DNA from: Casimicrobium huifangae
GTDB taxonomy: Bacteria; Pseudomonadota; Gammaproteobacteria; Burkholderiales; Casimicrobiaceae
Assembly: GCF_009746125.1 (NCBI RefSeq)
Contig: NZ_CP041352.1
Location: 1,515,847 to 1,579,846 of the forward strand
Reading direction: 5' to 3'
Length of the DNA stretch: 64,000 nucleotides
Under the pieces are notes generated by a model, which saw nothing but the letters and a program-made list of their open reading frames with translations, had not been told where the DNA came from and did not search any database. Both the position numbers and the translations under genes were made by a program. Of this stretch, positions 3,675-62,003 are shown in pieces. Every line of letters starts with the position of its first letter. The first letter of the stretch is position 1.

Positions 3675-3792
3675 CAGCTTTACGTGGAAAGTCTTATCCA
3701 ATAAGGGCGAATAGGGCTATTGAGCAAAAAGTCGACTTGCATCGATATATCCACTCACGCCGAATTGAAATGCGATTCTTGCTGAAAAGCTG
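3675..3792 (+). repeat. 118-bp palindromic intergenic element, copy 1
   Basis: Copy 1 of a family seen five times in this window. It starts CAGCTTT (3675-3681) and ends AAAGCTG (3786-3792). AAGTCGACTT sits exactly at its centre (element positions 55-64), and CTTATCCAATAAGGGC lies at element positions 19-34. It fills the gap between the DUF885 gene and the lipoprotein gene and overlaps no coding region. The other copies are at 28660, 37012, 44723 and 61887. Confidence 0.75.
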
Positions 3793-3819
3793 ATCCGCCA
3801 GCGCGGCTGCTGCTTCCAG

Positions 3820-4344
3820 TCAGCACGGCCGCATGATTCGCACACCCTTGTCTTCCTCCCGGCTGCCGGTGCTGCTGACGCGGCCGTCGTTGCCATAGCC
3901 AACGTAGAAGCAGGTTGGAAAGGTGCCGTCCATGAAGCGGTAAACGTGTACCAGTTCCTCGGGCCGGAACGGATAGCGCAGCGACCAGTACGATGGTCCG
4001 ATCAGTGCTTCCACTTCGTCCTGCGTCTGACCGATGACCACTTGGGCAACCCGCTGCGGTGTCAGCCCCTGAACGTTGCTGACCAGCTTGCCAGTCTCGT
4101 CAAAGCTCAGGATTTGCACCGTGCGGCCTTCCGGTGCACTGCTGTACGCCCAGCGCTCGCCGCCACCAGACCCGGCGGGCAGCCGCACTTGCGTCGTCGG
4201 CGCTCCCCATGCGGCGCGCACGTCCGCCGTGCTTGCACCGGGCTCCAGTGGTCGCAGCGACATGCAGCCGGCGACCAGCGCCATGGTGACCAGGGCGGCC
4301 AGGCTGCTGGATCGCAAGAATTGAGTCGCCGTCGAATGCGCCAT
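3820..4344 (-). CDS. small outer-membrane-type lipoprotein (BamE/SmpA-like)
   Basis: 174 residues. The N-terminus has a basic stretch, a hydrophobic core (SLAALVTMALVAGC) and a lipobox VAGC, so it should be lipidated and placed in the envelope. Two short repeats resemble the BamE/SmpA fold: one around STADVRAAWGAPTTQVRLPA, the other around VVIGQTQDEVEALIGPSYW. This pattern of a turn followed by a GxP loop is typical of small SmpA/OmlA-like lipoproteins. Start 4344 is preferred over the ATG at 4383 because AGGAG lies 7 bases upstream and the signal peptide then has normal length. It is too divergent to be called BamE itself. It is divergent from the diguanylate cyclase gene. Confidence 0.7.
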   Translation of the reverse strand: MAHSTATQFLRSSSLAALVTMALVAGCMSLRPLEPGASTADVRAAWGAPTTQVRLPAGSGGGERWAYSSAPEGRTVQILSFDETGKLVSNVQGLTPQRVAQVVIGQTQDEVEALIGPSYWSLRYPFRPEELVHVYRFMDGTFPTCFYVGYGNDGRVSSTGSREEDKGVRIMRPC

Positions 4345-4474
4345 GATGCTGCTCCTGAATCGATGCCGCGATGTTACGTGCACTGCGTTGCATTCCCGCT
4401 GCCAACGAGCTCGACGCGATGCCGGCCGCCGCTGTGCAGCCCCTCGGGACGCGGGCTTCGTCTACGCTTGCAAC

Positions 4475-6085
4475 ATGGTTGCTTCTCCTGTTTCCTCCGC
4501 CGCTGCGGCCTCGGAGCATACGTCGCGTGCCCTCGCCATTGGCGTAATGCTTGAGACTGGGCGGTTGCAGGACGCGTTGCGCGATGCGGAAGAGGCGCTG
4601 CGAGGCTGTGATGACGAGGAACGCCCGATCCTGCTGTGCATGAAGTGCAACGCGCTGGTGACCCTAGGGCAGCCACTCGATGCGCTGCGGGTAGCAACGG
4701 CAGCACGCGAATTGGCGCTGCCGATGGGCAGGCCGCTGCTCGTTGCCGAGGCCAATCTGGCGCTGTCATTTGCACTGCAGGCGCTGGAGGAGCACGACCG
4801 CGCCATCGATCTCGCGGCAGAGTGTGAAGACATCGCGACCACTCATCAGGATCAGGAATTGCTGGCACGGTCATCGCGGACGCTCGCGATTTCCTACTCC
4901 ATCCTCGGCCGCCATCAACAGGCAATCCCGATTCTTGAGCGGGTGGTGCAGCAACTCGAACAGCATGCGCGGACCCCGGAGCGCCTGTTCCACGCCCGCT
5001 ACTCGCTGATCAACGCCCGCTCCCGGCTGAGCAGCACCGATCGCCGGCCGGAGACCGAAAAGCTCGACACCTATCGCGGACTGCTCGCCGACTGGCTCGC
5101 CTTTGTCGAGGACGTTGAAGCGCGCAACCTGCTGCGACTGCGGGCGATGGCACTAGGCAACGCCGGCATTGCCGCCCGCCTTGCCGGAGATAACGAACTG
5201 GCCCTGCAAATCCTCGCGAGGGCGCGCGATGAGGAATACCGCCTCGGTCTGCGCGGCCACGGCGCGGTGTCGGAGAGCCATCTCGGCGCCGCTTATCAGG
5301 CGCTCGGTCGTCCGCAGGAGGCGATTGCGGCGTTTCGCAGTGCCATCGACAAGCTGAAGGAGGGCAATCCACGCGATCTCGCCGGTGCGTGCGAGGAGCT
5401 GGCTGCCGCCTACGAGTCAGTCGGCGACACCGCCGCCGCGCTCGATGCACTGAAGCAGACACGGGCTGCAGAACGTCGCCTGCGTGATGATGCGGCGCAT
5501 TCCGCTGCGGGGCGGCAGGAACGGCGCGACGAAGTGAACCGGCTGGCGGAACAGTGGACACGACTGGCCAGTGAAGACGGGCTCACGGCACTGGCCAACC
5601 GTCGGGCGTTTGACCGCAAGCTGGCAGCGCTTGCAGAGGCTGCGAAAACCGGCCATCCGTTTGCCGTGGTGCTGTTCGATCTCGATCACTTCAAGCAGAT
5701 CAACGACACGCATGGCCATGCCATCGGGGACGCCGTGCTGAAGCGCTTCGCCGCCATTCTTCGCAGCGAACGCCGCACCGACGATCTGGCGGCCCGTATT
5801 GGCGGTGAAGAGTTCGCGCTGTTGCTGGTAGCCGCATCGGTGGAACAGGCACGGGCGGTCGCCGTCAAAGTGCAGAAGGACCTCGATCGCGTGCCGTGGC
5901 CGCAGATTGCCGAGCGCCTGGTGGTGACCGTAAGCGCAGGAATCGCCTGCAGCGCCGAAGCGCTCGTCGGGGCTTCCAGTCAAACGAACGCAGGCGATTG
6001 CGCCGATGCCTTGTTAGCCGCCGCTGATCGCCGGCTGTATGCGGCCAAGGCAGCAGGGCGCAATCGGGTGGTGATGTCGGATTGA
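4475..6085 (+). CDS. diguanylate cyclase with N-terminal TPR-like repeats
   Basis: 536 residues, no membrane segment. Residues about 15-330 are alpha-helical repeats of TPR type (alanine/leucine-rich pairs such as EAIAAFRSAIDKLKEG), then a short coiled linker, then a GGDEF domain from about residue 365. The active-site loop is GGEEF at residues 443-447. The inhibitory site RxxD is present as RTDD at the standard spacing before it, and DLDHFKQINDTHGHAIGD is intact. The enzyme should therefore make cyclic di-GMP and be product-inhibited. The ATG at 4475 is chosen because the upstream ATG at 4343 would overlap the divergent lipoprotein start. The TPR part presumably senses a protein partner; which one cannot be seen. 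Confidence 0.88.
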   Translation: MVASPVSSAAAASEHTSRALAIGVMLETGRLQDALRDAEEALRGCDDEERPILLCMKCNALVTLGQPLDALRVATAARELALPMGRPLLVAEANLALSFALQALEEHDRAIDLAAECEDIATTHQDQELLARSSRTLAISYSILGRHQQAIPILERVVQQLEQHARTPERLFHARYSLINARSRLSSTDRRPETEKLDTYRGLLADWLAFVEDVEARNLLRLRAMALGNAGIAARLAGDNELALQILARARDEEYRLGLRGHGAVSESHLGAAYQALGRPQEAIAAFRSAIDKLKEGNPRDLAGACEELAAAYESVGDTAAALDALKQTRAAERRLRDDAAHSAAGRQERRDEVNRLAEQWTRLASEDGLTALANRRAFDRKLAALAEAAKTGHPFAVVLFDLDHFKQINDTHGHAIGDAVLKRFAAILRSERRTDDLAARIGGEEFALLLVAASVEQARAVAVKVQKDLDRVPWPQIAERLVVTVSAGIACSAEALVGASSQTNAGDCADALLAAADRRLYAAKAAGRNRVVMSD

Positions 6086-6185
6086 CACCGTGCGCGACGC
6101 CGACATTTCCGCATGCACGCGAATGCGCTACGCTTCGCGCCGGCCATGCGCGGTCGATCCGGGCGGCGCAACAACGGAGAACTGG

Positions 6186-6797
6186 ATGCAAAAATTTTTA
6201 TATCTGATTTGTGTCGCCCTCGTGGCGTTGCTGCAAATCGCCTTGCTGCCATCCGCCAGCGCCACTGAGCGCGCCATCGACAAGGAGATTGTGGTGCCCG
6301 CCAACGTCGATGCAGCGTGGATGGCGTGGACAACGCGCGAGGGGATCATCAGCTTCTTTGCTCCCGACGCGGTCGTTGACCCGCGCGTTGGCGGCGCCTT
6401 TCAGATCCACATCAACCCGCTCGCCGAACCAGGCATGAAGGGCGCCGACGATATGCGCTTTCTGGCGTTGCAACCGAGGAAGATGCTCTCGTTCGACTGG
6501 AACGCTCCGCCCAGCCTGCCGGAGGCACGTCAGCAGCGGACCTTTGTCGTCGTGCGGCTGACCCCGGTCGATGACAAGTCCACCCGGGTGTCGATTCATC
6601 ACACGGGCTGGGGCGATGGCGGCGAGTGGGACAAGGCCTATGCGTATTTCGACCGTGCGTGGGGCAACGTACTCATCAATCTGCGCAAGCGATTCGAGAC
6701 CGGACCGATGGACTGGACTGACTGGCTGGCGCAGTTGAAGAAAATGCGTGACGACGCAGCAAAGAACCGCGAAGACGCTGCCGCGACAAGAAAGTAG
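6186..6797 (+). CDS. exported SRPBCC (AHSA1-like) domain protein
   Basis: 203 residues. A signal peptide (KFLYLICVALVALLQIALLP ending near SASA) is followed by a START/SRPBCC fold: EIVVPANVDAAWMAWTTREG, VGGAFQIHI, MLSFDWNAPP, and VRLTPVDDKSTRVSIHHTGWG with GGEWDKAYAYFDRAWGNVL. This is the AHSA1 / polyketide-cyclase-like family, which binds hydrophobic ligands; most members are cytosolic, so export is a little unusual. The ATG at 6186 has GGAG about 8 bases upstream. It lies about 100 bp behind the cyclase gene. Ligand unknown. Confidence 0.8.
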   Translation: MQKFLYLICVALVALLQIALLPSASATERAIDKEIVVPANVDAAWMAWTTREGIISFFAPDAVVDPRVGGAFQIHINPLAEPGMKGADDMRFLALQPRKMLSFDWNAPPSLPEARQQRTFVVVRLTPVDDKSTRVSIHHTGWGDGGEWDKAYAYFDRAWGNVLINLRKRFETGPMDWTDWLAQLKKMRDDAAKNREDAAATRK

Positions 6798-6812
6798 ACG
6801 CCACCAGCGTCT

Positions 6813-7616
6813 TCATGGGAACGTGACGGCAATTGTGCCTAGCGCCCCGAAGTCCATCGTCAGTGCGTCACCGGGCGCGCAGGGCACCGGCACCACGCAG
6901 GTGCCGGTAGTGATGAAGTCACCGGCCTGCAAGCCATTGCCATAGGTGCAAAGCTCATTGGCCAGCCAGGTAAGGGCGATGCGCGGATCGCCGAACACGT
7001 TGGCGCCGATGCCTTCGGCAACGGTCCGTCCGGCGTTGCTGGCGGTCACGCGGTGCGCCGCGAGGTCGATGCTGCGCCAATCAATGGTCACGGCGCTGCC
7101 GACGACCCACCAGGATGCGCAGGCGAGGTCGGCAATCAGTGTTGGCGCACCGACTTTGACGAAGTCGTTGAACCGGGTGTCTGGCACCTCGATCGCGAGA
7201 TGCAGGCTGTCAACGGCCGCCATGACCTCGTCCACGACATACTGCTGCCCGTTTGCTTGCGGGGGCAACGTGCGAGCCATGCGAAACGCGAACTCGGCCT
7301 CGGCAACCCGCAGCAGATTGCCACGCAGGTCAATTGAATTGGCGGCTTCGCTGCCCGCCGCAAATATGCGATTGACCAGCAGGCGACCGGCCAGTGGACC
7401 GTCGACGTTGATGTGCTTCTGCCCGGCCATACTGGTCGCCGCGATCTTCCAGCCGACAGGCCGTTGCCCGAGCTGGCGCACGACTTCAGCCTGTACTGCA
7501 TAGCCCTCGGCGCGTGAGGCCGGACGGCATGCGGCCGGCAATTCGTCCCGGCGCGAGCCGCTGGCGAAATGTGCGGCGATCAGTTCGGCGGCTTCATTTA
7601 TGGCTTGAGGCTGCAT
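6813..7616 (-). CDS. 2-keto-4-pentenoate hydratase (FAH superfamily, MhpD-like)
   Basis: 267 residues, matching the usual length of MhpD/DmpE-type hydratases, which add water to 2-hydroxypenta-2,4-dienoate in aromatic meta-cleavage. Seen: VGWKIAATSMAGQKHINVDG near residue 55, AEAEFAFRMARTLPP (acidic metal-binding pair), EVMAAVDSLHLAIEVPDTRF, and the C-terminal LTWLANELCTYGNGLQAGDF, PGDALTMDFGALG. The ATG at 7616 is chosen because the coding signal upstream of it disappears. No other meta-cleavage genes are adjacent, so the physiological substrate is unclear. The gene converges with 6186-6797, with a 15-bp gap. Confidence 0.85.
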   Translation of the reverse strand: MQPQAINEAAELIAAHFASGSRRDELPAACRPASRAEGYAVQAEVVRQLGQRPVGWKIAATSMAGQKHINVDGPLAGRLLVNRIFAAGSEAANSIDLRGNLLRVAEAEFAFRMARTLPPQANGQQYVVDEVMAAVDSLHLAIEVPDTRFNDFVKVGAPTLIADLACASWWVVGSAVTIDWRSIDLAAHRVTASNAGRTVAEGIGANVFGDPRIALTWLANELCTYGNGLQAGDFITTGTCVVPVPCAPGDALTMDFGALGTIAVTFP

Positions 7617-7796
7617 ATTTCGCGTTCTGAATGGTGATGAAGCGATGCTAGCCGCTGTCCTACCCGCTACCGGCCTCCGCGTTTCTGCGACTGGTCGCGT
7701 CAGTGCCTGCAACCTGGTGGTGGTGCGACACAATCCGTCGCGGCGGTCGGCGACTCGTGACGACCATTGGTGCACAAGCATGCGAGGTCAGTCCGA

Positions 7797-8378
7797 ATGA
7801 ACGAACAGCAGGCGAAGCGAATTCGCATCTACCTTACCGTGGCAGTCCTTCTGGCCGAGATCGGCCACCTTGCGTGGGAGCACTTTCACGGCGGTATCGC
7901 CAGCCATCACTTCCTCAATCGCGCCGATATGCCCGCGGTCTCCAATGGATGGGGACTGCTGCTGTTGCCCGCAATCAGCTGGTTTCTGGGCGGCATCGCC
8001 TTGCGACGATCCATAGCGACTGCTGCTGCAGCAACGATCAACGCGCCGGGTGGCCAGGCTGAAGCCGCAGGACTGGCACGCGGCGTGTTCGTCGGATTTT
8101 TCGCGGAACTGCTGTTCGGTGCGTCGCTTGCTGCGACGTTCTCGCTGGGCTACCAGGATGTGACCTCCATTTTGTTCTTCGGCATGCTGCTGCTGGCACT
8201 GGTGTTTCGTGTCTATCGTGCCGAGTGCGTGCTGGGTTTCGTGCTTGGCATGACGTTCACTTTCGGCGCCATCCTTCCGGCGCTGGTCGCGTCTGTGACT
8301 GCGGTCATTTCGGCGGTCGCGCACCGGGTGCTCTATCCGCTGGCAAGGCGGGTCTGGATGGCACTCGGGCTAGGCTAG
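7797..8378 (+). CDS. multi-pass membrane protein of unknown function
   Basis: 193 residues, not recognised. Hydrophobic segments: RIYLTVAVLLAEIGHLAWEH, WGLLLLPAISWFLGGIAL, VFVGFFAELLFGASLAATFS, SILFFGMLLLALVFRV, and a long C-terminal pair through VLGFVLGMTFTFGAILP. That makes five to six membrane helices with short loops and a basic C-terminus. The ATG at 7797 precedes a normal N-terminus (MNEQQAKRIR). It is divergent from the hydratase gene and 96 bp ahead of the SGNH lipoprotein gene. No catalytic motif is visible. Confidence 0.7.
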   Translation: MNEQQAKRIRIYLTVAVLLAEIGHLAWEHFHGGIASHHFLNRADMPAVSNGWGLLLLPAISWFLGGIALRRSIATAAAATINAPGGQAEAAGLARGVFVGFFAELLFGASLAATFSLGYQDVTSILFFGMLLLALVFRVYRAECVLGFVLGMTFTFGAILPALVASVTAVISAVAHRVLYPLARRVWMALGLG

Positions 8379-8474
8379 TTGCGCAGATTCGACGCCGCTG
8401 CCGGAACAAAATCGGCCAAGTTGCGCTGCGATGCTCTAAAACCCTTGCATTGACATCTGGCAGGGGAGCAAACC

Positions 8475-9317
8475 ATGCAAGCCATCACGACCATCAGCTT
8501 CAGAACTTTCAGCGCGTTGCTGCTTGCCGGCGCCGCGCTTCTGCTCGGCGCCTGCGCTTCGACCCAGTCCGTTACGCCCACTGGCGCCACCGCGAGCGGG
8601 CCGGAGCAGACCAAGGCCGTACTCTGGGTCGGCAACAGCTTCTTCTACTACAACAACAGCATGCACGGCCATGTCGGGCAGTTGATTCAGGGCGCGACGA
8701 CCGGCGACAAGTCCGGCCATCGTGCGGTGTCCGCAACCATCAGCGGCTCCGGCATCAACTGGCACGATCTCGAATCGCACTTCAAGCCGGGCGGCGTGGG
8801 TTCCTATTCGTTCGACCGCAACAACAATGTCGTCTTCAACACCTTCACCAAGCCGTTCGACGTGGTGTTGATGATGGATTGCAGCCAGTGCCCGATCCAC
8901 CCGCAGTTGCAGAAGTTCTTTTATGACTATGCGCAGAAGAACAGCGAAATTGCCCGCAAGAATGGGGCACGCCCGGCGTTCTTCATGTCCTGGGCCTATC
9001 AGGACAAACCGGAGATGACGGAACAGCTCGCCGCGGAGTACACCAAGGCCGGGCGCCTGCACAACGCGCTCGTGGTGCCCGCAGGCCTCGCGTTTGCGGC
9101 GTCCGTCAAGGCGCGGCCCGATCTGAACCTCTACGTCGCAGACAAGCGGCACCCGAGTCTCGCGGGCACCTATCTCGCCGCCTGCACAGTGCTCGCTTCG
9201 CTTTACAAAACCAACCCGGAAGGCAACAGCTACACCGCCGGGCTCGATGTGGCGACGGCGAAATTCCTGCAGTCAGTCGCGTGGACGACGGTGCAGGAGT
9301 ACAACGCGAAGAAGTAG
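8475..9317 (+). CDS. SGNH-hydrolase-like lipoprotein
   Basis: 280 residues. Signal peptide with lipobox LGAC (TFSALLLAGAALLLGAC), so it is a predicted lipoprotein. The mature part starts with VLWVGNSFFYYNNSM, which matches the GNS block of SGNH (DUF4886-like) hydrolases carrying the nucleophile Ser. Near the C-terminus ADKRHPSLAGTYLAACT supplies the Asp-x-x-His pair. The middle has FDVVLMMDCSQCPIH. Family members are esterases or acetylhydrolases of carbohydrates, but the substrate here is open. A start at 8475 fits the signal peptide. It is followed by about 100 bp with nothing recognisable before ddl. Confidence 0.75.
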   Translation: MQAITTISFRTFSALLLAGAALLLGACASTQSVTPTGATASGPEQTKAVLWVGNSFFYYNNSMHGHVGQLIQGATTGDKSGHRAVSATISGSGINWHDLESHFKPGGVGSYSFDRNNNVVFNTFTKPFDVVLMMDCSQCPIHPQLQKFFYDYAQKNSEIARKNGARPAFFMSWAYQDKPEMTEQLAAEYTKAGRLHNALVVPAGLAFAASVKARPDLNLYVADKRHPSLAGTYLAACTVLASLYKTNPEGNSYTAGLDVATAKFLQSVAWTTVQEYNAKK

Positions 9318-9425
9318 GCGGCAGACTCGCTTTCACGCCAGGCGCGTGAACGCCAGTTTCAACTTCCTCAGGGCTTCGTGGGCCTGGTTCCCGACGTCGC
9401 TCGGACGCGGGATTCTTGCGCCGTC

Positions 9426-10448
9426 CTAGCGCCGCTCCAGCGCCAACTCAACCAGTCTTGAGACGAGGTCGCCGTATTTCACACCGCCGGCGCGCCAGAG
9501 CTCGGGGTACATCGAGGTCTTGGTAAAACCGGGCATGGTGTTCACCTCATTGAGGAACAACTCGCCCGTGCTGTCGAGATAGAAGAAGTCCACCCGCGCA
9601 AGGCCCGCGCAATCGAGCGCGCGGAAGGCCTCGATCGCCAGCGCGCGGGCGCGGTCCGAAATTGCCGCCGGAATCTTGGCCGGGATATGCATTTCAGCCT
9701 TGCCGGCCGTGTATTTGGTTTCGTAGTCGTAGAACTCGCTGTCGAAGGTCAGCTCGCCTACCGGGCTTGCCTTCGGATCGTCGTTGCCGAGGATACCCAC
9801 CTCGATTTCGCGCGGTTTCTCGGAGGTCGCGGCCTCAACAATCACACGACGATCCAGCTCGAATGCCAATCGCAGTGCGGTGCGCAGCTCGGTCTCGTTC
9901 TTCGCCTTCGAGATGCCAACGCTGGAGCCCAGATTCGCTGGCTTGACGAATACCGGGAAGCCAAGCGACACAATGCGCGCGACGGCATCCTCCGGCGTAC
10001 TGGCGAACTCGGCACGCGTGACGAGCTGATACGCCACCTGCGGGATGCCGTGTGAGGCGAGAACGGCCTTCGCCATCACCTTGTCCATGCAGACGGCGCT
10101 GCCCAGCACGCCAGAGCCCACGCACGGAATGCCAGCGAGCTTGAGCATGCCTTGCACCGTGCCGTCCTCTCCGTTGGGGCCGTGCAGGATCGGGAACACT
10201 ACGTCGTAACCCTCGGCCGCGCTGGCCTGATGCAGCACAAGCTCGCCACCGCTGGGCGCGCTGCCGCGCTCCAGCGCCCGCGCTGAGTCGGGCGCCGGCA
10301 GCCAGCGGCCCTCACGGGAGATCACCACGCTGGTCACATCAAAGCGATCCTTCGGGAGCGCGGACAGCACGCTGCGCGCACTGTTGATGGACACTTCATG
10401 TTCACCGGATTGGCCACCGGCAAGGACGAGGACGCGAGTTTTTTTCAT
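9426..10448 (-). CDS. ddl: D-alanine--D-alanine ligase
   Basis: 340 residues. An ATP-grasp enzyme that joins two D-Ala for the peptidoglycan stem peptide, in the cytosol. N-terminal [17 protein letters not shown], then [56 protein letters not shown], and the C-terminal metal-binding [19 protein letters not shown] are all intact. Length is close to DdlA types. It lies away from the usual mra/ftsQAZ cluster, beside cell-wall recycling genes, and the VanX-type dipeptidase at 27974 performs the reverse reaction. It is the last gene of a minus-strand run with 10520-11527 and the SpmAB fusion. Confidence 0.95.
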
Positions 10449-10519
10449 GCACCAATTTTAGGAGGCCCGGCCGCACGTACCGGATGCACTCTGGCGTTCA
10501 TGCGACTTCGGCATGGCGC

Positions 10520-11527
10520 TCAGCGCGATGCTGTGCCGGGGTAGACGACGCGCTCGTCTACGGCGTACAGCACGCATCGGGGGCCCGTGGTCTGCCCACC
10601 ACCCCGGGCCTTGCAGCGGGCCAGCGCGACATCAATCGAGTTTGGATCGTTGGCGCTCCAGGCCCAATGCGCACCGTTGGCCGAGACGGCGAAAGCGCGG
10701 GGCAGCGCCGCCAGGCGAAACTGCCCGAAATCGCGCTTGGCCAGCGGGTTGCGCACTGGCAGCTTGTCGATTTGTTCCAGCGTGGCGTACGCGGTGGTCG
10801 GGAACTTTTCGCGGCGCCAGCCATAGGGCAGGTTTCCACTGTCCGGACTCGACCAGATCACCTGCGACGTCACAACCCCTTGCGCCAGCGCGCTGGTGGC
10901 GATCTTCTCGCATTGCTGCGGCCGGGCCGACTCGGTGCCGAGGCAGAGCATGGTCGCCTGCCCGAAACGCGACGCAACTGCTGGCGGATAAAAGCGCACA
11001 TCGCCGGCGCGGCGCTCAATGCTGATCCAGCGCTTCACCAATGCCGGATCGGCCTTGCCGTCGGTGAATTTCAACGTCCATTGCAGCAGGTCGTTTTTCT
11101 CCACTGCCGCGTTGTTCAGCTTGCCAAAGTCATAGTGGCCGTGAAAACCCACATAGGTCAGGCTGGCTGGAAAATCGTCGGAAAACAGCCGCTGCCTGCC
11201 GCCCAGGAAAAGGCGCGAGCACGCTGATACGCAGTGGCCAGACACCACCGTGGTCACGCCCTTCTCGCGGAACAGCTCACCGAGCCGATAACCCGTCCAG
11301 CTGTTGCCCCCCATCGAATTGCGCAGCACGACATGGGTGATCATGGGCGTCCTGTTGAACTCGGCCTGCACGGCGTCGAGGTCACGCCGCACGATCTCGC
11401 CGGAGAGAACCAGTGTGTCGCCCAGGCGAATGACTTCCATCGAAACGGCCTGCGGTGCGGCGACACAGGCCGCGAGCAAAACCACAATGGCGGAAGCTTT
11501 GCGGTGGCGACCCGTGCTGCGCAGCAT
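10520..11527 (-). CDS. periplasmic ClpP/crotonase-fold protein (COG3904-like)
   Basis: 335 residues. The N-terminus has a signal peptide (SAIVVLLAACVAAPQAVS). The N-terminal half follows the ClpP/crotonase pattern: LVLSGEIVRRDLDAVQAEF, ITHVVLRNSMGGNSWTGYRL and VVSGHCVSACSRLFLGGRQR, the last resembling the GxCxSAC loop of predicted periplasmic ClpP-class proteins. The C-terminal 100 residues are not recognised and contain several cysteines. Whether it is a protease is unknown. The start lies 9 bp behind the SpmAB fusion, so the two are probably co-transcribed. Confidence 0.7.
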   Translation of the reverse strand: MLRSTGRHRKASAIVVLLAACVAAPQAVSMEVIRLGDTLVLSGEIVRRDLDAVQAEFNRTPMITHVVLRNSMGGNSWTGYRLGELFREKGVTTVVSGHCVSACSRLFLGGRQRLFSDDFPASLTYVGFHGHYDFGKLNNAAVEKNDLLQWTLKFTDGKADPALVKRWISIERRAGDVRFYPPAVASRFGQATMLCLGTESARPQQCEKIATSALAQGVVTSQVIWSSPDSGNLPYGWRREKFPTTAYATLEQIDKLPVRNPLAKRDFGQFRLAALPRAFAVSANGAHWAWSANDPNSIDVALARCKARGGGQTTGPRCVLYAVDERVVYPGTASR

Positions 11528-11536
11528 CTGAACGAA

Positions 11537-12775: not shown

Positions 12776-12891
12776 ACGGTCAAGAGTGAGCTGGGAACGC
12801 GCACCCTCTGTGCGCAGGCGTTGCCTGCCGGGCGGCACTGTCACCGGATTGTGTCAGAGGGCGAACCGGCGTGTGTGCGGCAAAAGTCCGA

Positions 12892-12914
12892 AATGATGTG
12901 TAACCGGCATCATT
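12892..12914. promoter_or_regulatory. candidate operator between spmAB and nagA
   Basis: AATGATG (12892-12898) and CATCATT (12908-12914) form a 7-bp inverted repeat with a 9-bp spacer, about 30 bp upstream of the nagA start. Position and symmetry suit a repressor site. No cognate regulator is in the window and a chance match cannot be excluded. Confidence 0.3.
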
Positions 12915-12944
12915 GCGCATCGACAACGATGATAAAAACGGTTC

Positions 12945-28659: not shown

Positions 28660-28777
28660 CAGCTTTTTTGTAAAAGCCTCGCTGGAAAAGGGACCAAACA
28701 GGAAAAAGACTGCAAGTCGACTTTGCAGCTTTTCACTCCTGGAGCCCATATTGAATAACGCTTTGGACGAAAAGATG
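28660..28777 (-). repeat. 118-bp palindromic intergenic element, copy 2 (inverted)
   Basis: Inverted relative to copy 1. CAGCTTTTTT at 28660; AAGTCGACTT at element positions 55-64, exactly as in copy 1; GCCCATATTGAATAAC at positions 85-100, aligned with GCCCTTATTGGATAAG of copy 1; end AAAAGATG. It lies in the 351-bp gap between the dipeptidase and the protease-nuclease gene. The remainder of that gap (28778-28966) shows no gene or clear site. Confidence 0.75.
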
Positions 28778-36099: not shown

Positions 36100-36522
36100 T
36101 CAATGAACAGCGGGCAGCGCGTCGGGGTCACCGGGGATGATGACGCGCAACCCCTTGAAGTAATCACGGTGGAAGCCACCGTCGTAAGTGATCAGCCCTT
36201 CGCACTGCATCAGCGCGTGGGCGCCAATCAGGAAGTCGGCGATGATGCGGGAACGGGTGCCGCCGTTCTTGCGGTAGCGCTTCGACATTTCGCCAGCGCG
36301 GATGGCGGCAGTTTCGTTGGTGGGGACGAACAGGAACCCGAGGCTCGCCAGCGTCTTGCGTGTCTGCTCGCTGTCACCACGAGAACAGATCTCCGCCATC
36401 GCCACATCGGACAGCGCGAGGCGACCAATCTGGGCGGCATCGCTGAGCGTCTGCGTGCTTTGTTCGGCATCGGGGCCGTCGAAAAGCATGTCGATCAGCA
36501 CGCTGGAATCCACCGCGATCAT
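36100..36522 (-). CDS. vapC: VapC-type PIN-domain ribonuclease toxin
   Basis: 140 residues. PIN-domain acidic residues are in place: [13 protein letters not shown] (first Asp), [12 protein letters not shown] (Glu), [20 protein letters not shown] (Asp) and [12 protein letters not shown] (last Asp). PIN toxins cleave RNA, often initiator tRNA or 23S rRNA. The start overlaps the upstream antitoxin stop by ATGA, the usual coupling of such pairs. Lying right before acnB is unusual. Confidence 0.88.
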
Positions 36523-36941
36523 GCACGCTTCCTGCGCGTTGCGGTGGCGGCCACGCCCGCGCGCGGCGCGGCGGTAGTGGATGCTTCGGTGTTATCGGTC
36601 ACCGGCAAGCTCTGCTCGGCAAGCCAGGCGGCACGGCGGCGGGCGTGGTCCTCGCGCACGGCGGCAGGGATCTCGATGTCGTCGCGCAGTTCCTCCCACG
36701 GCTCGATGGGATCGTTGGGCGCGCGCCCGCGAAGCTCGCGCATGATGCCTTCGACCGTTTCGCCTGGCTCCAGCTTGAGGATGCCACGCGCCCGGCTGAA
36801 GGCGTCGTCCAGCTTCTTGCGGATGATGAGCTTGCCACCTTCGACGGTGAAGGTGAGCAGCGTACCCGGCGTCAGACCAAGCTGATCGCGAATGGCTTTC
36901 GGAATGACAACCTGACCGCGTTCTGCAAGGGTGGCTTCCAT
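36519..36941 (-). CDS. vapB: AbrB/MazE-type antitoxin (VapB)
   Basis: 140 residues. The N-terminal SpoVT-AbrB DNA-binding domain is clear: ATLAERGQVVIPKAIRDQLG, LTPGTLLTFTVEGGKLIIRK. The rest is longer than most VapB proteins (usually 70-90 residues): a helical toxin-binding region (WEELRDDIEIPAAVREDHAR) and a low-complexity Ala/Thr/Arg tail. It should neutralise the PIN toxin and repress its own promoter; repeated TACC/GGTA half-sites lie directly upstream at 36944-36988. Confidence 0.85.
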   Translation of the reverse strand: MEATLAERGQVVIPKAIRDQLGLTPGTLLTFTVEGGKLIIRKKLDDAFSRARGILKLEPGETVEGIMRELRGRAPNDPIEPWEELRDDIEIPAAVREDHARRRAAWLAEQSLPVTDNTEASTTAAPRAGVAATATRRKRA

Positions 36942-37011: not shown

Positions 37012-37134
37012 GAGCTATCATCTTGGCGAATAAATGGCGTCCAAGCGCGGCTGACAGGGCAATTCGGCAAAAAGTCGGAATTTAGCTATTTCGACAGTTA
37101 AGCCCATATCCAGCGCGGTTCTTCGCAAAAAGCT
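37012..37134 (+). repeat. palindromic intergenic element, copy 3 (left half diverged)
   Basis: The right 69 bp align base for base in spacing with copy 1: GCAAAAAGTCG starting at 37067, then TTCTTCGCAAAAAGCTG ending at 37134, followed by the shared AT. The left end (GAGCTATCATCTTGG) is degenerate. It lies between vapB and the end of prpF. Confidence 0.55.
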
Positions 37135-37149
37135 GATGGCATCTGATGC

Positions 37150-44722: not shown

Positions 44723-44839
44723 CAGCTTTTCCTTCAACGCCCCGCTACATCAGGGCACAGCGCGGAATTACCCGCTTATCGACTTCAACAGATTTTGCAT
44801 GCCAAGCCCTTGTCAAATAAGGCTTGCAGGAAAAAGCTG
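44723..44839 (-). repeat. 117-bp palindromic intergenic element, copy 4 (inverted)
   Basis: CAGCTTTTCC at 44723 to AAAAAGCTG at 44839. GCCCTTGTCAAATAAGG is at element positions 84-100, aligned with GCCCTTATTGGATAAG of copy 1, and TCGACTT is at the centre. It abuts the prpB start codon: read on the minus strand its end GAAGGAAAAGCTG is immediately followed by ATG. Confidence 0.75.
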
Positions 44840-44945: not shown

Positions 44946-44968
44946 AGTCAATAAGTGCTCAATCACTT

Positions 44969-45032
44969 TCCGTTTTGCAAGCCCACGAAACCGTCGGGCG
45001 CGCCGCGCGCGACCGTGGGCTTGCAAAACGGA
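44969..45032. repeat. 19-bp perfect inverted repeat, long hairpin
   Basis: TCCGTTTTGCAAGCCCACG (44969-44987) is repeated exactly inverted at 45014-45032, enclosing 26 GC-rich bases that can themselves partly pair. A T-run on either side is short. It could end transcription from mdh, process the mRNA, or be a recombination remnant. Confidence 0.8.
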
Positions 45033-45092
45033 GCTGCGCACAAGTGGCACGCAGCTCGGCGACGACGGGTGAAAAACGGTGGCATACCTTTG

Positions 45093-52372: not shown

Positions 52373-52456
52373 CAAGGCATCGTTGGCATCAAACTTCAAA
52401 CGACAGTAAACAGCAAAGCAACCAGCGAGTGACGGAAACACGTTGACACCTCCTTG

Positions 52457-52499: not shown

Positions 52500-52509
52500 T
52501 TCTCGTCCT

Positions 52510-52530: not shown

Positions 52531-52533
52531 GAA

Positions 52534-55371: not shown

Positions 55372-55436
55372 TTTGTCAGGACGAATGACGAAGGACAAAC
55401 GCGCTTTGCGTTAGACGAAATCCAAAGAAATGATCC

Positions 55437-55500
55437 GTAGGGTGGGCACCTTTGCCCACCACCACAAAGTAACCGCGTGGGCAGCGACTGCCCACCCTAC
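55437..55500. repeat. inverted pair of GTAG-type REP palindromes
   Basis: GTAGGGTGGGCA with its hairpin arm TGCCCACC (55437-55460), and the inverted copy ending GCCCACCCTAC (55477-55500). Located between sucA and sucB, 21 bp ahead of the sucB ATG. The sequence is of a type found in many proteobacteria. Confidence 0.8.
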
Positions 55501-55521
55501 GAGAAGAACCTGGAAGAGACT

Positions 55522-56754
<1,233 letters not shown>

Positions 56755-56795
56755 TGCTCGTCACGCAGGTGGTGGTGCGCTGCTGACTTGTTTGC

Positions 56796-56954
56796 ATGCA
56801 AGTCAAGACGCGACTCATCACCCTCGCAATTGCACTGGCTGCATTAGCCATCGGCTGCCTTATCTACTTCGGTTGGGTGCAGCTTGAGATCGACAAGTGC
56901 CTGGACGCAGGCGGACGATGGAATGATCGCGTTCACGCGTGTGAGCGTTGGTGA
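56796..56954 (+). CDS. 52-residue membrane-anchored small protein
   Basis: Reads [20 protein letters not shown], then a hydrophobic run through LIYFGW, and ends with [18 protein letters not shown]. One N-terminal membrane helix and a C-terminal C-x-x-GGRW-x6-C motif seen in many small hypothetical proteins of proteobacteria. The stop is 11 bp before the lpd ATG, within the sucB-lpd gap. No strong Shine-Dalgarno. Function unknown; it may be an envelope protein with a disulfide. Confidence 0.6.
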
Positions 56955-56965
56955 AGGAAAACACA

Positions 56966-58393
56966 ATGGATCAATTTGACGTAGTGGTGATTGGTGGCGG
57001 CCCCGGTGGCTATGTGGCGGCGATTCGCGCTGCACAACTCGGCTTCAAGACCGCCTGCATCGACGAGTGGAAGAACGCCAAGGGCGGCCCGGCGCCGGGC
57101 GGCACCTGCACCAATGTGGGCTGCATCCCGTCGAAGGCGCTGTTGCAGTCCTCCGAGCACTACGAACATGCGCTGCATCACTTCGGCGATCACGGCATCA
57201 CCATCAAGGGTGCGTCGATGGACGTGGCGAAGATGGTGGCCCGCAAGGACGCCGTGGTGAAGCAGAACAACGACGGTATCCTCTACCTGTTCAAAAAGAA
57301 CAAGGTGACCTTCTTCCACGGTCGCGGTGCGTTTGCCGGTGCGGCGAAGGATGGCGTCTATCAGATCGATGTCAGCGATCCTTCCAGCACCTCGATCGCC
57401 GCGAAGCAGGTGATCATCGCCACCGGCTCCAATGCCCGCGCGCTGCCGGGTGTGGCGTTTGACGAGAAGCTGGTGCTGTCGAATGACGGCGCGCTCTCCA
57501 TCGGCGAAGCGCCGAAGAAGCTTGGTGTGATTGGTGCCGGCGTGATTGGCCTGGAGATGGGCTCGGTCTGGCGTCGCCTTGGCGCGGAAGTGACGGTGCT
57601 CGAAGGCTTGCCAAACTTCCTCGGTGCGGTGGACGAACAGATCGCAAAAGAAGCGGCCAAACTGTTCAAGAAGCAGGGCTTCGCGATTCACCTCGGCGTC
57701 AAGGTCGGTGCGGTCAAGACGGGCAAGAACGATGTCACCGTCGAGTACACCACGGCGGACGGCAAGGCGGAAACGGCGACCTTCGACAAGCTGATCGTGT
57801 CGATCGGCCGCGTGCCGAACACGACAGGCCTCAATGCTGATGCGGCGGGCGTGAAGCTCGACGAGCGCGGCTTCATCGTTGTTGACGGCGACTGCAAGAC
57901 CAGCGCGCCGAATGTGTGGGCGGTGGGCGACGTGGTGCGTGGCCCGATGCTCGCGCACAAGGCCGAGGAAGAGGGCGTCGCGGTCGCCGAGCGTATGGCA
58001 GGCCAGCATCCGCACATCGATTTCAACTGCATCCCGTGGGTGATTTACACCTCGCCGGAGATCGCCTGGGTCGGCCAGACCGAGCAGCAATTGAAGGCAG
58101 CGGGCGTCGCCTACAAGGCTGGCAGCTTCCCCTTCCTCGCCAATGGTCGGGCACGGGCGCTCGGCAGCACCGACGGGCTGGTCAAGATTCTGGCCGACGC
58201 GAAAACCGACAAAGTGCTCGGCATGCACGTGATCGGCCCGGTCGCCTCGGAGCTGATCGCCGAAGGCGTGATGGCGATGGAGTTTGGTGCGTCCAGCGAA
58301 GACATCGCCCGCATCTGCCACGCCCACCCGACGCTGTCGGAAGCGACCAAGGAAGCCGCACTGGCGGTGGACAAGCGGACGCTGAATTTCTAG
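56966..58393 (+). CDS. lpd: dihydrolipoyl dehydrogenase (E3)
   Basis: 475 residues. FAD motif [20 protein letters not shown]; redox disulfide [23 protein letters not shown] motif [40 protein letters not shown]; catalytic His-Glu in [16 protein letters not shown]. Re-oxidises the lipoamide of the 2-oxoglutarate complex. The ATG at 56966 follows GAAGGAAAA. Confidence 0.96.
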
Positions 58394-58403
58394 CGTTGCG
58401 TTT

Positions 58404-58469
58404 ACTTCCGTTCGTAGTGAGCTTGTCGAATCACGAACGCAGATCAACTGAGCCCTTCGAAGGGCTCAG
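58404..58469. repeat. REP-like hairpins downstream of lpd
   Basis: GTAGTGAGCTTGTCGAATCAC (GTAG at 58414) in a CGTTCGT/ACGAACG hairpin, then the perfect palindrome CTGAGCCCTTC-GAAGGGCTCAG (58448-58469). This resembles the common CCCTTCGA/TGAGC intergenic repeats; the second hairpin could also end lpd transcription. Confidence 0.65.
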
Positions 58470-58486
58470 GGCGCGCGGGTAGTTGT

Positions 58487-59608
58487 TTGCTGCAAAACCT
58501 GGAAAAAATCTGTCAGGAACGCGGGATCACACTGGATCCTGCGCAACAGCGCGCCGCGCAACGCCTCGCGCAGTTGAACGACGAGCTGCACGCGTTCAAG
58601 GACAAACGCGCATCGCTGATGGGCTTGGGGCGAATGTTCACGCGACCACAGCTGCCGCGCGGTGTCTATTTTTTCGGCGGCGTCGGTCGCGGCAAGAGCT
58701 TCCTGATGGATGCCTTCTACGCCAGCACGCGCGTTCGTCGCAAGGTGCGCGTGCACTTCCACGCCTTCATGCGCAGCGTGCATGCCGAGCTGCGTGGATT
58801 GAAGCATGAGGCCGATCCGCTGGTGGTGGTGGCCGAGCATCTGGCCGAGCGCTACCGGCTGATCTGCTTCGACGAATTTCACGTCAGCGACATCGCCGAC
58901 GCGATGATCCTCGGGCGTCTGCTGTCGAACTGCCTGGACAACGGCATTGTGTTCGTGATGACGTCCAACTACACGCCCGACCGCCTGTATCCCGATGGAT
59001 TGCAGCGGCAAAATTTCCTGCCGACCATTGCGCTGATCAAGGACCGGATGGACGTGATCGAGGTGGACAGCGGCGTTGACTACCGCCGCCGCACGCTGGA
59101 GCAGGATCACGTGTATCACAGCCCGCTCGGCGCCGCGACCGACGACAAGCTCGCAGCGACATTTGCGCGGCTGGCGACCTCGAAGCCCTCCGCCGAGAAG
59201 CACATCACCATTCTCGGCCGCGATGTTGCGGTGCGGCGGCAGGCCGATGGCGTGATCTGGTTTGATTTCGCGGCGCTGTGCGAGACACCACGGTCGCAAA
59301 ACGACTATCTCGAACTGGCGCAGTCGTATCACACGCTGATCCTGTCCAACGTACCGCTGCTGGCAACGAAGGACAGCAACGTGATCCGCCGCCTGACGTT
59401 GCTGGTGGACGTTCTCTACGACCATCGGGTGAAGCTCATCATCAGCGCGGCGGCGTCGCTGGTCGAGATCGCCGCCGTTGATGACGACGTGAAAGACAGC
59501 GATACCCGCCGCGTGCTCAGTGAGTTCTCGCGCACTGCGTCGCGCCTGACCGAGATGCAGAGTGCGGAGTACATGAGCGAGCCGCATTTGCCGTCGCTGA
59601 TCAGGTAA
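58487..59608 (+). CDS. zapE: AFG1-family ATPase ZapE
   Basis: 373 residues. Walker A GVYFFGGVGRGKSFLMDAFY, Walker B LICFDEFHVSDIADAMILGR, sensor VMTSNYTPDRLYPDGL, and the C-terminal SNVPLLATKDSNVIRRLTLL typical of AFG1/LACE1. In E. coli ZapE binds FtsZ and assists division under stress. The start is TTG at 58487 (MLQNLEKICQERGI); no better ATG is available. Following lpd is a recurring arrangement in this order. Confidence 0.9.
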   Translation: MLQNLEKICQERGITLDPAQQRAAQRLAQLNDELHAFKDKRASLMGLGRMFTRPQLPRGVYFFGGVGRGKSFLMDAFYASTRVRRKVRVHFHAFMRSVHAELRGLKHEADPLVVVAEHLAERYRLICFDEFHVSDIADAMILGRLLSNCLDNGIVFVMTSNYTPDRLYPDGLQRQNFLPTIALIKDRMDVIEVDSGVDYRRRTLEQDHVYHSPLGAATDDKLAATFARLATSKPSAEKHITILGRDVAVRRQADGVIWFDFAALCETPRSQNDYLELAQSYHTLILSNVPLLATKDSNVIRRLTLLVDVLYDHRVKLIISAAASLVEIAAVDDDVKDSDTRRVLSEFSRTASRLTEMQSAEYMSEPHLPSLIR

Positions 59609-59659
59609 CGGCATGTTGCCTTCGGCCTTTGCTACGCGGATTGGGCAGGAGCAGCTGCT

Positions 59660-60637
59660 TTGAGATTGGTCGCGGTCTCGATGGTCCGGAACGAGGGCGA
59701 CATCATCGAAGCCTTCGTGCGCCATCATGCCGGTCTGCTCGACCACCTGGTGGTGCTTGACCACAATTCGTCCGACAACACGCCTGACGTTCTCAAAGCC
59801 CTGCAGGCGGAGGGCCTGCCGCTCACGGTGTTGCATGACGAGTCGCTGTCGTTCCAGCAAGGGCCGCGACTGACCGACCTCGCGCGACGCTGCTTTGCCC
59901 AGGTTGGTGCCGATTTCGTGTTTCCGCTCGACGGTGATGAATTCCTGCGCGTCGAGTCGCGCGCTGCGCTAGAGCAGGCGTTGCTAAGGGTGCCGGCTGG
60001 CGCCTGCGGCAAGGTGCCTTGGCAAACCTATGTTGCGAGCGATGTGGACGACGCGACTGAAGCCAATCCGGTGCGCCGCATGCGTCATCGGGTGGCCGAG
60101 GAGCCGAAAGCCGACGTCAAGGTGGTGCTTACCCGGCTACTGCTGTCTGATGCGCGCTGGCAACTGGTGCCGGGAAGTCACATGCTGCTTCGCGAGATGG
60201 CCGACGGCGCTACACAGGCAGCGGATATGGTGTTCGTTGAGGGAGTGCGGCTGGCGCATTTTCCGTTGCGTTCTCAGCAGCAGTATCAGCAGAAAATCCT
60301 GCTGGGTTGGCTATCGACGCGTTTGCAAAACCCGACCGAGATGGTGGCGGCCGAGTCAGGCCAGCAGATGACGGCGATGTTCTGGCATTGGCGCGAGCTG
60401 TTCGCCCGCTTGCTGACCGATCCGTCGCTGACGCCTGCGGACCTGCGCGAGCATGCCCTGCGCATGTATGTTGACCGCGTGCCGCTGAATCATCCGTTCA
60501 CTGCTCACGCGTTGCTGGAGGACCCGGTCGCGGTTGACTACGCCCTGAGTCTGACGACTGCGCACGACAGCATCGCGCTGGTAAGCCTTGCGCTTTGGGC
60601 GGATCGCCTGTTGACCCGAGTTGGCGAGAAACTCTGA
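59660..60637 (+). CDS. family-2 glycosyltransferase (Glyco_tranf_2_4 type)
   Basis: 325 residues. GT-A fold: VAVSMVRNEGDIIEAFVRHH, HLVVLDHNSSDNTPDVLKAL, and the metal-binding FVFPLDGDEFLRVESRAALE (DxD-like DGDE). Then RHRVAEEPKADVKVVLTRLL and SHMLLREMADGATQAADM; the C-terminal half is helical. No membrane helix. The sugar and acceptor are unknown; relatives act on surface polysaccharide or glycoproteins. A TTG at 59660 gives the full N-terminal strand; the ATG at 59681 would cut into it. Confidence 0.82.
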   Translation: MRLVAVSMVRNEGDIIEAFVRHHAGLLDHLVVLDHNSSDNTPDVLKALQAEGLPLTVLHDESLSFQQGPRLTDLARRCFAQVGADFVFPLDGDEFLRVESRAALEQALLRVPAGACGKVPWQTYVASDVDDATEANPVRRMRHRVAEEPKADVKVVLTRLLLSDARWQLVPGSHMLLREMADGATQAADMVFVEGVRLAHFPLRSQQQYQQKILLGWLSTRLQNPTEMVAAESGQQMTAMFWHWRELFARLLTDPSLTPADLREHALRMYVDRVPLNHPFTAHALLEDPVAVDYALSLTTAHDSIALVSLALWADRLLTRVGEKL

Positions 60638-60740
60638 CGGCCGGCTTTCATGGCGCTTGCTGCGCTATGCTGGACGAGGTTAATGACCGCGGCGGTGTCC
60701 GCCATCACCTGTTTCCAGCAACCCTGATCGAGGCCGACCC

Positions 60741-61841
60741 ATGAATGCATCGGTGCAGCACTTCACCGTTCAACGCAACAATCCAGCGCAGGGACGCTGG
60801 CATCGGGCCCCCTTGCCGGCTGTCGGTGCTGGCGAGGTCCTGCTTCATGTGGATCTGGTGTCCTTCACTGCCAACAACGTCACCTATGCGATGTTTGGTG
60901 AGCGGATGAAGTATTGGGCGTTTTTCCCGACCAACGATGCTGCGAGCGGCAGCATTCCAGTGTGGGGATTCGCAGACGTGGTCGCATCGGCGGCCGACGG
61001 CGTTGCGGTTGGCGAACGTTTTTATGGCTACTACCCGATGTCCAGCCATCTGCTGGTGAAGCCGGCGCGCGTCGGTCCGGGTGGCTTTCTCGATGCCAGT
61101 GAGCATCGGCGCGAACTGCCCGCGATTTACAACCAGTACGTCCGCTGCAGCACTGACAGCATGTACCGCCAGGACCGCGAAGCCGAGCTGGCGATATTGC
61201 GGCCGCTGTTTGCGACCAGCTTTCTGCTGGATGACTTTCTTGCCGACAACCAGGACTTTGGCGCGACCAGGGTTTTGTTGTCGAGCGCGTCGAGCAAGAC
61301 GGCTTACGGAACGGCGGCCTGCCTCGCGGCGCGCGGCGGCGTGGAAGTGGTCGGATTGACTTCATCGAGCAACGCTGACTTCGTCAATGCGCTCGGTTGC
61401 TATTCACGGGTGGTGACCTACGACGCGCTGGCATCGCTGGATCCGTCGGTGCCGACTGTTTATTGCGATTTCGCCGGCAACGCTGCGCTACGGGCTGACA
61501 TCCATCGTCACTGCGGCGATGCATTGACCTACAGTTGCAGTATTGGCGGCACCCATTGGGACCATCTCGGCGGCGGCGGCGCATTGCCCGGTCCACGTCC
61601 GGTACTGTTCTTTGCGCCAAGCCAGGCCAAGAAGCGGGCCGGTGAGTGGGGGCCGGACGGCTTGCAGAGGCGTCTGGGCGAGGCGTGGGAGCGCTTCATC
61701 ACGCAGGTGACATCGGGCCCGACAAAGTGGCTGACGGTGGCAACCTCATCCGGGCAGGAGGCGATCAGCAAGGCTGTTGCCGACGTCATGCAGGGGCGGG
61801 TGCCACCGAACGAAGGCCATGTTTTGCGTTTCGGCAGTTAG
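60741..61841 (+). CDS. DUF2855 family protein (MDR-like)
   Basis: 366 residues. Matches DUF2855: GEVLLHVDLVSFTANNVTYA, MKYWAFFPTNDAASGSIPVW, GFADVVASAADGVAVGERFY, GYYPMSSHLLVKPARV. A Rossmann-like middle follows (RVLLSSASSKTAYGTAACLA, VVGLTSSSNADFVNALGCYS), and VYCDFAGNAALRADIHRHC. It resembles a medium-chain dehydrogenase/reductase without the zinc ligands. No function is established for the family. Confidence 0.8.
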   Translation: MNASVQHFTVQRNNPAQGRWHRAPLPAVGAGEVLLHVDLVSFTANNVTYAMFGERMKYWAFFPTNDAASGSIPVWGFADVVASAADGVAVGERFYGYYPMSSHLLVKPARVGPGGFLDASEHRRELPAIYNQYVRCSTDSMYRQDREAELAILRPLFATSFLLDDFLADNQDFGATRVLLSSASSKTAYGTAACLAARGGVEVVGLTSSSNADFVNALGCYSRVVTYDALASLDPSVPTVYCDFAGNAALRADIHRHCGDALTYSCSIGGTHWDHLGGGGALPGPRPVLFFAPSQAKKRAGEWGPDGLQRRLGEAWERFITQVTSGPTKWLTVATSSGQEAISKAVADVMQGRVPPNEGHVLRFGS

Positions 61842-61886
61842 GCACGGGTCGATTGCCGACTGCTTCATGGGGCTTGTGCGTGGCAG

Positions 61887-62003
61887 CAGCTTTTCGCTGA
61901 AAGTACCATTGGATAAGGGCTACAGCGGCAATCAGTCCGTTGTCGACTTTCAGCCTTTTGGTGGTCATCGCCCTGAGCGTTTGGCCTTTTCAGCGAAAAG
62001 CTG
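61887..62003 (+). repeat. 117-bp palindromic intergenic element, copy 5 (best ends)
   Basis: Ends CAGCTTTTCGCTGAAA (61887-61902) and TTTCAGCGAAAAGCTG (61988-62003) are perfect 16-bp inverted repeats. ATAAGGGC at element positions 27-34 and GCCCTGA at 84-90 are symmetric. GTCGACTT lies at the centre. It sits between converging genes. Confidence 0.8.

Follow-up and report, generated by a model that had tools for sequence, protein, structure and literature searches.

A dyad-symmetric intergenic element of about 118 bp, evenly spaced along the Casimicrobium huifangae chromosome, as a candidate docking site in double-stranded DNA

What is a palindromic element that recurs between genes, at a constant length and with little sequence in common from copy to copy, for? 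The question is raised by a 64,000-nt stretch of the Casimicrobium huifangae chromosome (contig NZ_CP041352.1, positions 1,515,847 to 1,579,846; hereafter the window, to which position numbers refer), in which a preliminary description had noted five such copies and proposed either selection on a folded structure or an old miniature transposon with two inverted halves. We followed the element through its own genome (G000) and the other genomes of the genus (G001-G016), and the evidence points to a selected site in double-stranded DNA, perhaps one that docks a protein. All five copies are present:

Copy 1: 3675..3792, + strand, 118 bp; between the called genes 1660-3603 (- strand) and 3820-4284 (- strand)
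Copy 2: 28660..28777, - strand, 118 bp; in a divergent intergenic region
Copy 3: 37012..37135, + strand, left arm decayed; between a MazE/AbrB-like open reading frame (ORF), 36519-36941, and prpF
Copy 4: 44723..44839, - strand, 117 bp; directly upstream of prpB
Copy 5: 61887..62003, + strand, 117 bp; in a convergent intergenic region

The length of 117-118 bp given for the four intact copies was borne out, and copy 3, reported as decayed in its left half, is a real copy truncated on that side (nhmmer match 37032-37135, E 4e-14). A left-arm pattern allowing up to three mismatches matches copies 1, 2, 4 and 5, no other place in the window and none of 100 shuffles. All five copies avoid genes, as had been claimed; copy 4 abuts the ATG that reads as the start of prpB, and only the longer, TTG-start reading of that ORF overlaps it, by 15 nt.

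The family extends far beyond the window; a failure to find further copies had been named in the preliminary description as grounds for abandoning it. A sequence-only model built from six copies matches throughout the own genome (among the best 150 matches, both strands counted). An iterated, symmetrized profile was run on a sample of 864 kb of the 4.47-Mb genome, consisting of the window and forty 20-kb stretches, two of which adjoin the window; it found 67 places, 66 of them with E <1e-5. This corresponds to about 346 copies per genome (95% interval 268-440), or 341 if the window and its two neighbors are left out. A strict pattern of GGGC, TCGA and GCCC at fixed spacing, which catches about two thirds of the copies, has 240 matches genome-wide, compared with 7 for the reversed pattern.

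An alignment of 60 full-length copies spans 118 columns with few gaps and is symmetric about a central GTCGAC; the own-genome consensus reads CAGCTTTT..GAAA..GGGCT..AAAGTCGACTTT..AGCCC..TTTC..AAAAGCTG. Its parts are two outer ends (CAGCTTTT and AAAAGCTG), two palindrome-like boxes, L and R, centered about 34 bp to either side of the dyad, and the center itself, which is less conserved in more distant species. Copy 5 illustrates the arrangement:

61887..61894, + strand: left end box CAGCTTTT, columns 1-8 (conservation of 92% or more in columns 4-7)
61917..61920, + strand: left GGGC of box L, columns 31-34, 90-98% conserved
61942..61947, no strand assigned: central GTCGAC at the dyad, columns 57-62
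61970..61973, + strand: right GCCC of box R, symmetric to columns 31-34
61996..62003, + strand: right end box AAAAGCTG, columns 111-118

The best columns, conserved at 90-98%, are the CTTT of the ends, the last A of GAAA, GGGC and TCGA, while many others are near random; the sequence information totals about 84 bits over the 60 copies. Two details of the preliminary description are correct as observations and lose their particular meaning here. GTCGAC does sit at the dyad of copies 1 and 2, but it is no specialty of these two, the CG at the dyad being 97% conserved among the 60. The extra AT noted after the terminal sequence is likewise present, but belongs to a weak symmetry that continues beyond both ends (A or T at position +1 in 94 of 120 ends, T at +2 in 61 of 120); at +5 to +7 outside the ends, C is the commonest base.

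Apart from these columns, the 60 copies show no sign of a genealogy. Their mean pairwise identity is 0.533, against 0.537 for independent columns, and the maximum is 0.678, within the 0.653-0.684 expected from independent columns; the copies are thus no more alike than independent draws from each column, and no subfamilies are visible. No 21-mer is common to any two of the 60 copies compared (of about 346). The two halves of one copy match each other slightly better than they match the halves of others (0.539 vs 0.511). A minority of the own-genome boxes belong to a subtype that reads TGGCGTC or similar in columns 17-24 and has frequently lost one base. Of 120 half-sites, 14 have CGTC beginning at column 21, a hint that a single genome may contain more than one kind of box.

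The copies have a definite place relative to genes, to which a simple hexamer method assigns 87.4% of the sequence. Every one of the 65 scorable copies lies between genes, and no overlap with a called gene exceeds 15 nt (two of the 67 lie at block edges and were left unscored). Tandem gaps hold 39 copies, convergent gaps 15 and divergent gaps 11, compared with 203, 35 and 77 available gaps of at least 100 bp (p 0.006). Within tandem gaps the element tends toward the end of the upstream gene, 30 of the 39 copies being nearer its stop codon (median distance 29 vs 98 bp, p 0.001).

Along the chromosome, the element occurs about once per 13 kb and more evenly than chance. In 40 blocks of 20 kb, the number of copies has a variance/mean ratio of 0.263 and one block is empty, whereas random placement of 67 copies in the intergenic gaps of these blocks gives 0.87 and 7.4 empty blocks; none of 5000 simulations reached a ratio as low. 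Pairs less than 4 kb apart number three, against 14.4 under the same random placement, and the closest neighbors are about 1.1 kb apart. Within one contiguous stretch of 204 kb, the lengths of the 17 gaps show a coefficient of variation of 0.61, which alone does not differ from an exponential distribution (p 0.13). A partly independent list, the first 100 genome-wide places of the strict pattern (0-1.92 Mb), which overlaps in part with the 67-copy set, was compared with a Poisson null: 5 of its 99 gaps are below 4 kb where 18.6 are expected, the Kolmogorov-Smirnov p is 0.0015, and 10-kb bins give a variance/mean of 0.75 (p 0.004). Removing four places that were judged by eye to have no AT-rich spacer leaves 3 of 95 short gaps against 17.2 expected, and a 20-kb variance/mean of 0.76.

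Over other genomes, the element is unevenly distributed. Model R1 (E <=1e-5) has matches in 10 of the 16 other genus genomes, just one apiece in three of these; 23 genomes from outside the genus gave no match. The end pattern AGCTTTT-95..107-AAAAGCT is found 23-126 times per genome in nine members of the genus including our own (30), 0-7 times in the other eight, and at most once in each of 47 genomes from the family's other genera, for which the reversed control yielded as many as three matches. Samples of G008 (122 kb) and G016 (50 kb) held no copy with the models used; genome-wide at E <=0.01, G008 has 12 distinct places, and G016 has none among the 150 of 239 candidates that were scored. 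A scan for dyad symmetry that uses no model does not tell element-bearing genomes from the rest. Among viral sequences in IMG/VR, the box-centre-box pattern matched seven stretches, of which model R1 recovered none at E 0.01, and the end-only pattern matched at least 120.

Within the genus, the element persists at orthologous places despite heavy neutral divergence, which supports the view that it is under selection. Four-fold synonymous identity to the own genome is 0.66 in G011, 0.63 in G012, 0.62 in G013 and 0.47 in G010. The contiguous 204 kb contain 18 copies. Synteny with G011 exists for 13, and for nine of them the corresponding G011 interval holds an element (eight distinct); all three mappable copies in G012 and both in G013 likewise have an element in their interval. 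For copy 2, G011 has an element (L165:4851-4965) at the corresponding end of its left flank, the right flank not being alignable. At the place of copy 3, elements were found in G012 (L168:4647), G015 (L179:3510) and G010 (L178:4715) and not in G011; at that of copy 5, in G012 (L167:2050) and G013 (L169:2703), with none in G011 at E 1e-3. The prpB place of copy 4 is the most widely occupied, with an HMM-supported element in eight of eleven covering genomes (G011, G012, G013, G015, G004, G006, G002 and G010), a likely one by eye in G014, and none in G008 or G016. The E-values for G006, G002 and G010 are self-inclusive, since those models were iterated from the genomes' own copies; reversed controls gave none. 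Motif columns and low-information columns are 83% and 49% identical, respectively, in six ortholog pairs with G011 (three of the nine, partial, split or shared, being left out), 90% and 47% in two pairs with G013, and 56% and 39% in three pairs with G012, for which the columns are those defined on the own genome's box type. The baseline, a random half of all full-length G000-G011 pairs, among them a few orthologs, is 77.5% and 37%. As these percentages are modest, the case for selection rests more on persistence at the same places. Separately, G004 contains two near-identical copies on different contigs (C66:858-973 and C205:300-415), reflecting either a recent duplication or an assembly duplicate.

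What changes at these places is the box. We distinguish four box types, of which type A is that of the own genome. G012, a close relative, has the same ends and GTCGAC center with boxes ACGACCG..CGGTCGT (type B; 13 copies in 160 kb), and the model built on G012 also picks up type-B elements in G007 (13 in 100 kb) and G003 (4 in 35 kb). Boxes resembling GCCCAATT..AATTGGGC mark type C, which is found in G006 (35 copies in 220 kb) and G002 (14 in 100 kb), and type D in G010 (6 in 60 kb); the type-A model misses the box types that G012 and G006 have of their own. The differences are seen at orthologous positions: the places of copies 3-5 carry other box sequences in other species, including the G012 type at all three. 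In a species tree built from five linked genes (G003 by prpC only, G005 absent), type B appears in G012 and in G003/G007, and type A in G000, G011 and G013 as well as in G001, G015 and G004. The clade of G000, G011 and G012 has a support of 1.00 (DNA) and 0.99 (protein). Because type B of G012 thus lies inside a supported clade with the type-A genomes G000 and G011, box type does not follow the linked-gene tree.

Does the element act as a folded structure, as the preliminary description suggested? The part of that proposal that invoked selection agrees with the persistence at orthologous places; the fold fares less well, since the excess of pairing is small. Watson-Crick pairing over the full dyad exceeds expectation in the 60 own-genome copies with a z of 3.5; a second test, which counts each copy twice, gives 0.451 vs 0.413 expected at the center and an inflated z of 4.5. 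The best register between boxes L and R reaches 0.232 vs 0.209 expected (z 3.0), so that a check for covarying base pairs yields a weak excess at the dyad and little in the boxes. The 35 copies of G006, 14 of G002 and 13 of G012 give no consistent signal, those of G002 showing an excess at two registers beside the dyad (z 4.1 and 3.5). We set aside a folded RNA or hairpin as the main explanation. A narrower version, a structured RNA element in mRNA 3' regions that serves as a terminator, stabilizer or RNA-protein site and, being palindromic, works from either strand, would fit the location toward stop codons, the weak excess of pairing at the dyad and the mean fold z-score of -2.5 (59 of 60 copies below 0), although a palindromic consensus would tend to give such values anyway. 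Yet the ends and boxes are conserved in sequence rather than covarying, 11 of 65 copies lie between divergent genes, and even spacing has no rationale in such a model. Furthermore, neither the window nor 140 kb of the sample, taken as seven 20-kb blocks, contains an Rfam 15 family at its gathering score, the matches around copy 5 all being sub-threshold. We therefore regard an RNA element as improbable.

A double-stranded site accommodates these observations more readily. We propose that purifying selection maintains the element as a cis-acting site in the double-stranded chromosome, which a protein machine would bind symmetrically, with some 120-130 bp wrapped on a protein core as at a gyrase site; a species-specific factor might read the L and R boxes and the ends, and the sites could then serve as topological or nucleoid-organizing docks at gene boundaries. 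We hold this reading at about an even chance. The analysis shows the copy number, the symmetry, the intergenic position with its 3' bias, the even spacing, the conserved positions and the switching of boxes, while the protein, the wrapping and the topological role are what we infer. Around the dyad, the G/C content oscillates with a period of roughly one helical turn, A/T minima falling at about 4, 13, 24, 32-37, 44 and 54 bp from the dyad, which suggests wrapping; the profile about the dyad is related in all box types (correlations 0.35-0.94). Over the whole half-element, phasing of about 10 bp has a block-permutation p of 0.006 in type A, 0.004 in B and 0.025 in C. PMC6379681 describes the Escherichia coli gyrase motif as symmetric, about 130 bp long and flanked by arms with phased G/C, and gyrase sites as enriched downstream of highly transcribed operons. 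The strong gyrase site described there resembles our element in length, in its symmetry about the cleavage site and, as far as the half-elements of types A, B and C go, in phased G/C; it differs in that the gyrase motif is degenerate with 10.75-bp arms, while the element has near-invariant boxes and weak phasing of the arms.

Several observations weigh against this proposal. The phasing is uneven: type D has a p of 0.128 over the whole half and peaks at 8 bp, type A shows a further peak of the same height at 7.75 bp, and in the arms alone phasing is significant only in B, with A, C and D peaking near 7.5 bp, so gyrase is a candidate rather than a conclusion. The ends are common to the types, and part of a common G/C pattern is accordingly expected. 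About 84 bits together with the switching of boxes exceed what a degenerate gyrase motif would explain, and no binding protein was found. The 11 divergent copies of 65 lie where there is no gene end. Four of the 13 syntenic intervals in G011 have no element, two of the nine elements found there are partial or split matches, and the motif columns of orthologs are modestly above those of unrelated copies in G011 (0.83 vs 0.775) and lower in G012 (0.56). Finally, regularity at the level of bins is weaker in the pattern list, where 20-kb bins give a variance/mean of 0.79 (p 0.07).

Among explanations that rely on mobility, the one we take most seriously, while considering it unlikely, is a REPIN-like population copied by RAYT (Y1) transposases, in which two inverted REP halves and a spacer would move as single-stranded hairpins and be maintained by slow copying. 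Proteins with the PF01797 domain occur in 15 of the 17 genus genomes and are absent from the two small genomes G008 and G016, which have 12 distinct places at E <=0.01 and none, respectively. No target duplication with at least three matches and z >3 was found among the 60 copies (k of 2, 3, 4, 5, 6, 8 and 9, end offsets -2 to +2), which fits, as Y1 transposases are not known to make any. The intergenic 3' location also agrees with what PMC3733652 reports. However, a fixed tag was not found: GTAG occurs in at most 2 and GTGG in at most 4 of 120 half-sites at any column, and CGTC in 14 at one. The absence of a common 21-mer differs from the 37-427 perfect REP copies reported for Stenotrophomonas in PMC2817692. 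Four RAYT-like genes are present in the own genome (one below the Pfam cut-off), with the nearest seen copy 2.5-4.2 kb away, and none of the four loci is flanked by two inverted copies (at locus 2013791, 0.9 kb was read on one side). Even spacing would not be expected of copying either, nor would the presence of different box types at one place. The relatedness of RAYT paralogs does not match box type, G012b and G000d being 86% identical in species of types B and A. As for a RAYT that determines box specificity, we discarded the idea: in a tree of 33 of 44 Y1 matches (type-B coverage 2/2 in G012, 4/4 in G003 and 4/5 in G007; G012 is 91% complete; G015a, with an internal stop, entered as a 24-residue piece only), no paralog group joins the type-B species against type A. 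The RAYT-like genes form about six paralog groups, patchy over the genus and with several per genome in many members.

The miniature transposon of the preliminary description is not supported. An old family of miniature inverted-repeat transposable elements (MITEs), with two inverted halves mobilized long ago by some transposase and now decaying, would account for the terminal inverted repeats, defined length, high copy number and intergenic position. It does not account for the lack of target duplications, which had been put forward as a check, for conservation that is strongly uneven by column in copies with no subfamilies, for the even spacing, or for the different boxes that other species have at these places; and since the copies have no duplications and no genealogy and persist at the same places under heavy neutral divergence, we rejected a decayed MITE, leaving this explanation only a very slight chance. 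Operators of one global transcription factor with a large regulon would be a selected, dyad-symmetric motif in double-stranded DNA, and motifs that differ by species would fit a changing DNA-binding domain. These sites lie toward gene ends rather than promoters, even spacing is not required of operators, and 118 bp with about 84 bits far exceed the needs of one factor, making a regulon very unlikely, if a little less so than a MITE.

Of known repeats, the REP/BIME/REPIN elements are the nearest in kind (PMC2817692, PMC3116915, PMC8049555, PMC12306157 and PMC3733652); the location fits, while the tag, the identical copies and the flanking RAYT genes do not. In E. coli, BIME-1 consists of two inverted REPs with an IHF site between them and BIME-2 of gyrase-bound REP clusters (PMC2817692, PMC6379681). 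Like BIMEs as described there, the element has two inverted palindromic boxes around a central site, is intergenic and mostly after coding regions, and has a high copy number; unlike them, it has no GTAG tag and no tandem clusters, its single units are spaced more evenly than chance, its ends and GTCGAC center are strongly conserved, and its box sequence differs by species at the same places. No arrays of the BIME-2 kind were seen, the 67 copies including just the three close pairs. With the REPIN/RAYT system it has in common two inverted halves, a less conserved spacer, long persistence and RAYT-like genes in most genus genomes, and it departs from that system in having no exact repeats in common, no element-flanked RAYT among its own four, RAYT groups unlinked to box type, and a conserved center. 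ERIC, an imperfect palindrome of about 127 bp in the enterobacteria, has copies that can be aligned from end to end and whose insertion target is TA. Set side by side by description, ERIC and our element are alike in length, palindromic form and intergenic position, and unlike in that copies of the latter have only motif columns in common and show no duplication. A literature search found no published description of this 118-bp family, subscription papers lying mostly outside its scope.

Two neighbors of the window copies deserve mention. Beside copy 3, a PIN-domain ORF and the adjacent AbrB/MazE-like ORF (36100-36941) likely form a toxin-antitoxin pair. Between prpB and mdh, downstream of mdh, lies a long near-perfect hairpin (44960-45045, - strand; minimum free energy -52 kcal/mol for 44955-45050, z -4.0), which is 82-93% identical in G013, G011, G007, G003 and G012 (six of 17 genomes counting our own). 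It is probably a strong terminator or 3' processing element and distinct from the 118-bp repeat.

Repeats of the REP type tend to be treated as selfish or incidental. The roughly 350 single sites described here are distributed more evenly than chance would have it, many of them stay at the same places across the genus, and from species to species their recognition sequence changes in a concerted way. We tentatively suggest, as a possibility that we would not yet call probable, that they represent a new class of chromosome-architecture site: a dyad-symmetric docking element of 118-132 bp, present once per about 13 kb and rarely less than 4 kb from the next, with boxes at orthologous places that switch among A, B, C and D during speciation. 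The switch offers a natural experiment for finding the protein, which should differ between G012 (type B) and its relatives G000 and G011 (type A). Together, the properties of these sites permit a direct test of whether the supercoil or nucleoid domains of bacterial chromosomes are anchored at regular intervals by specific sequences. If the suggestion is true, the genus would possess a nucleoid or topology factor, as yet undiscovered, whose specificity changes fast, and in effect regular domain anchors along a bacterial chromosome.

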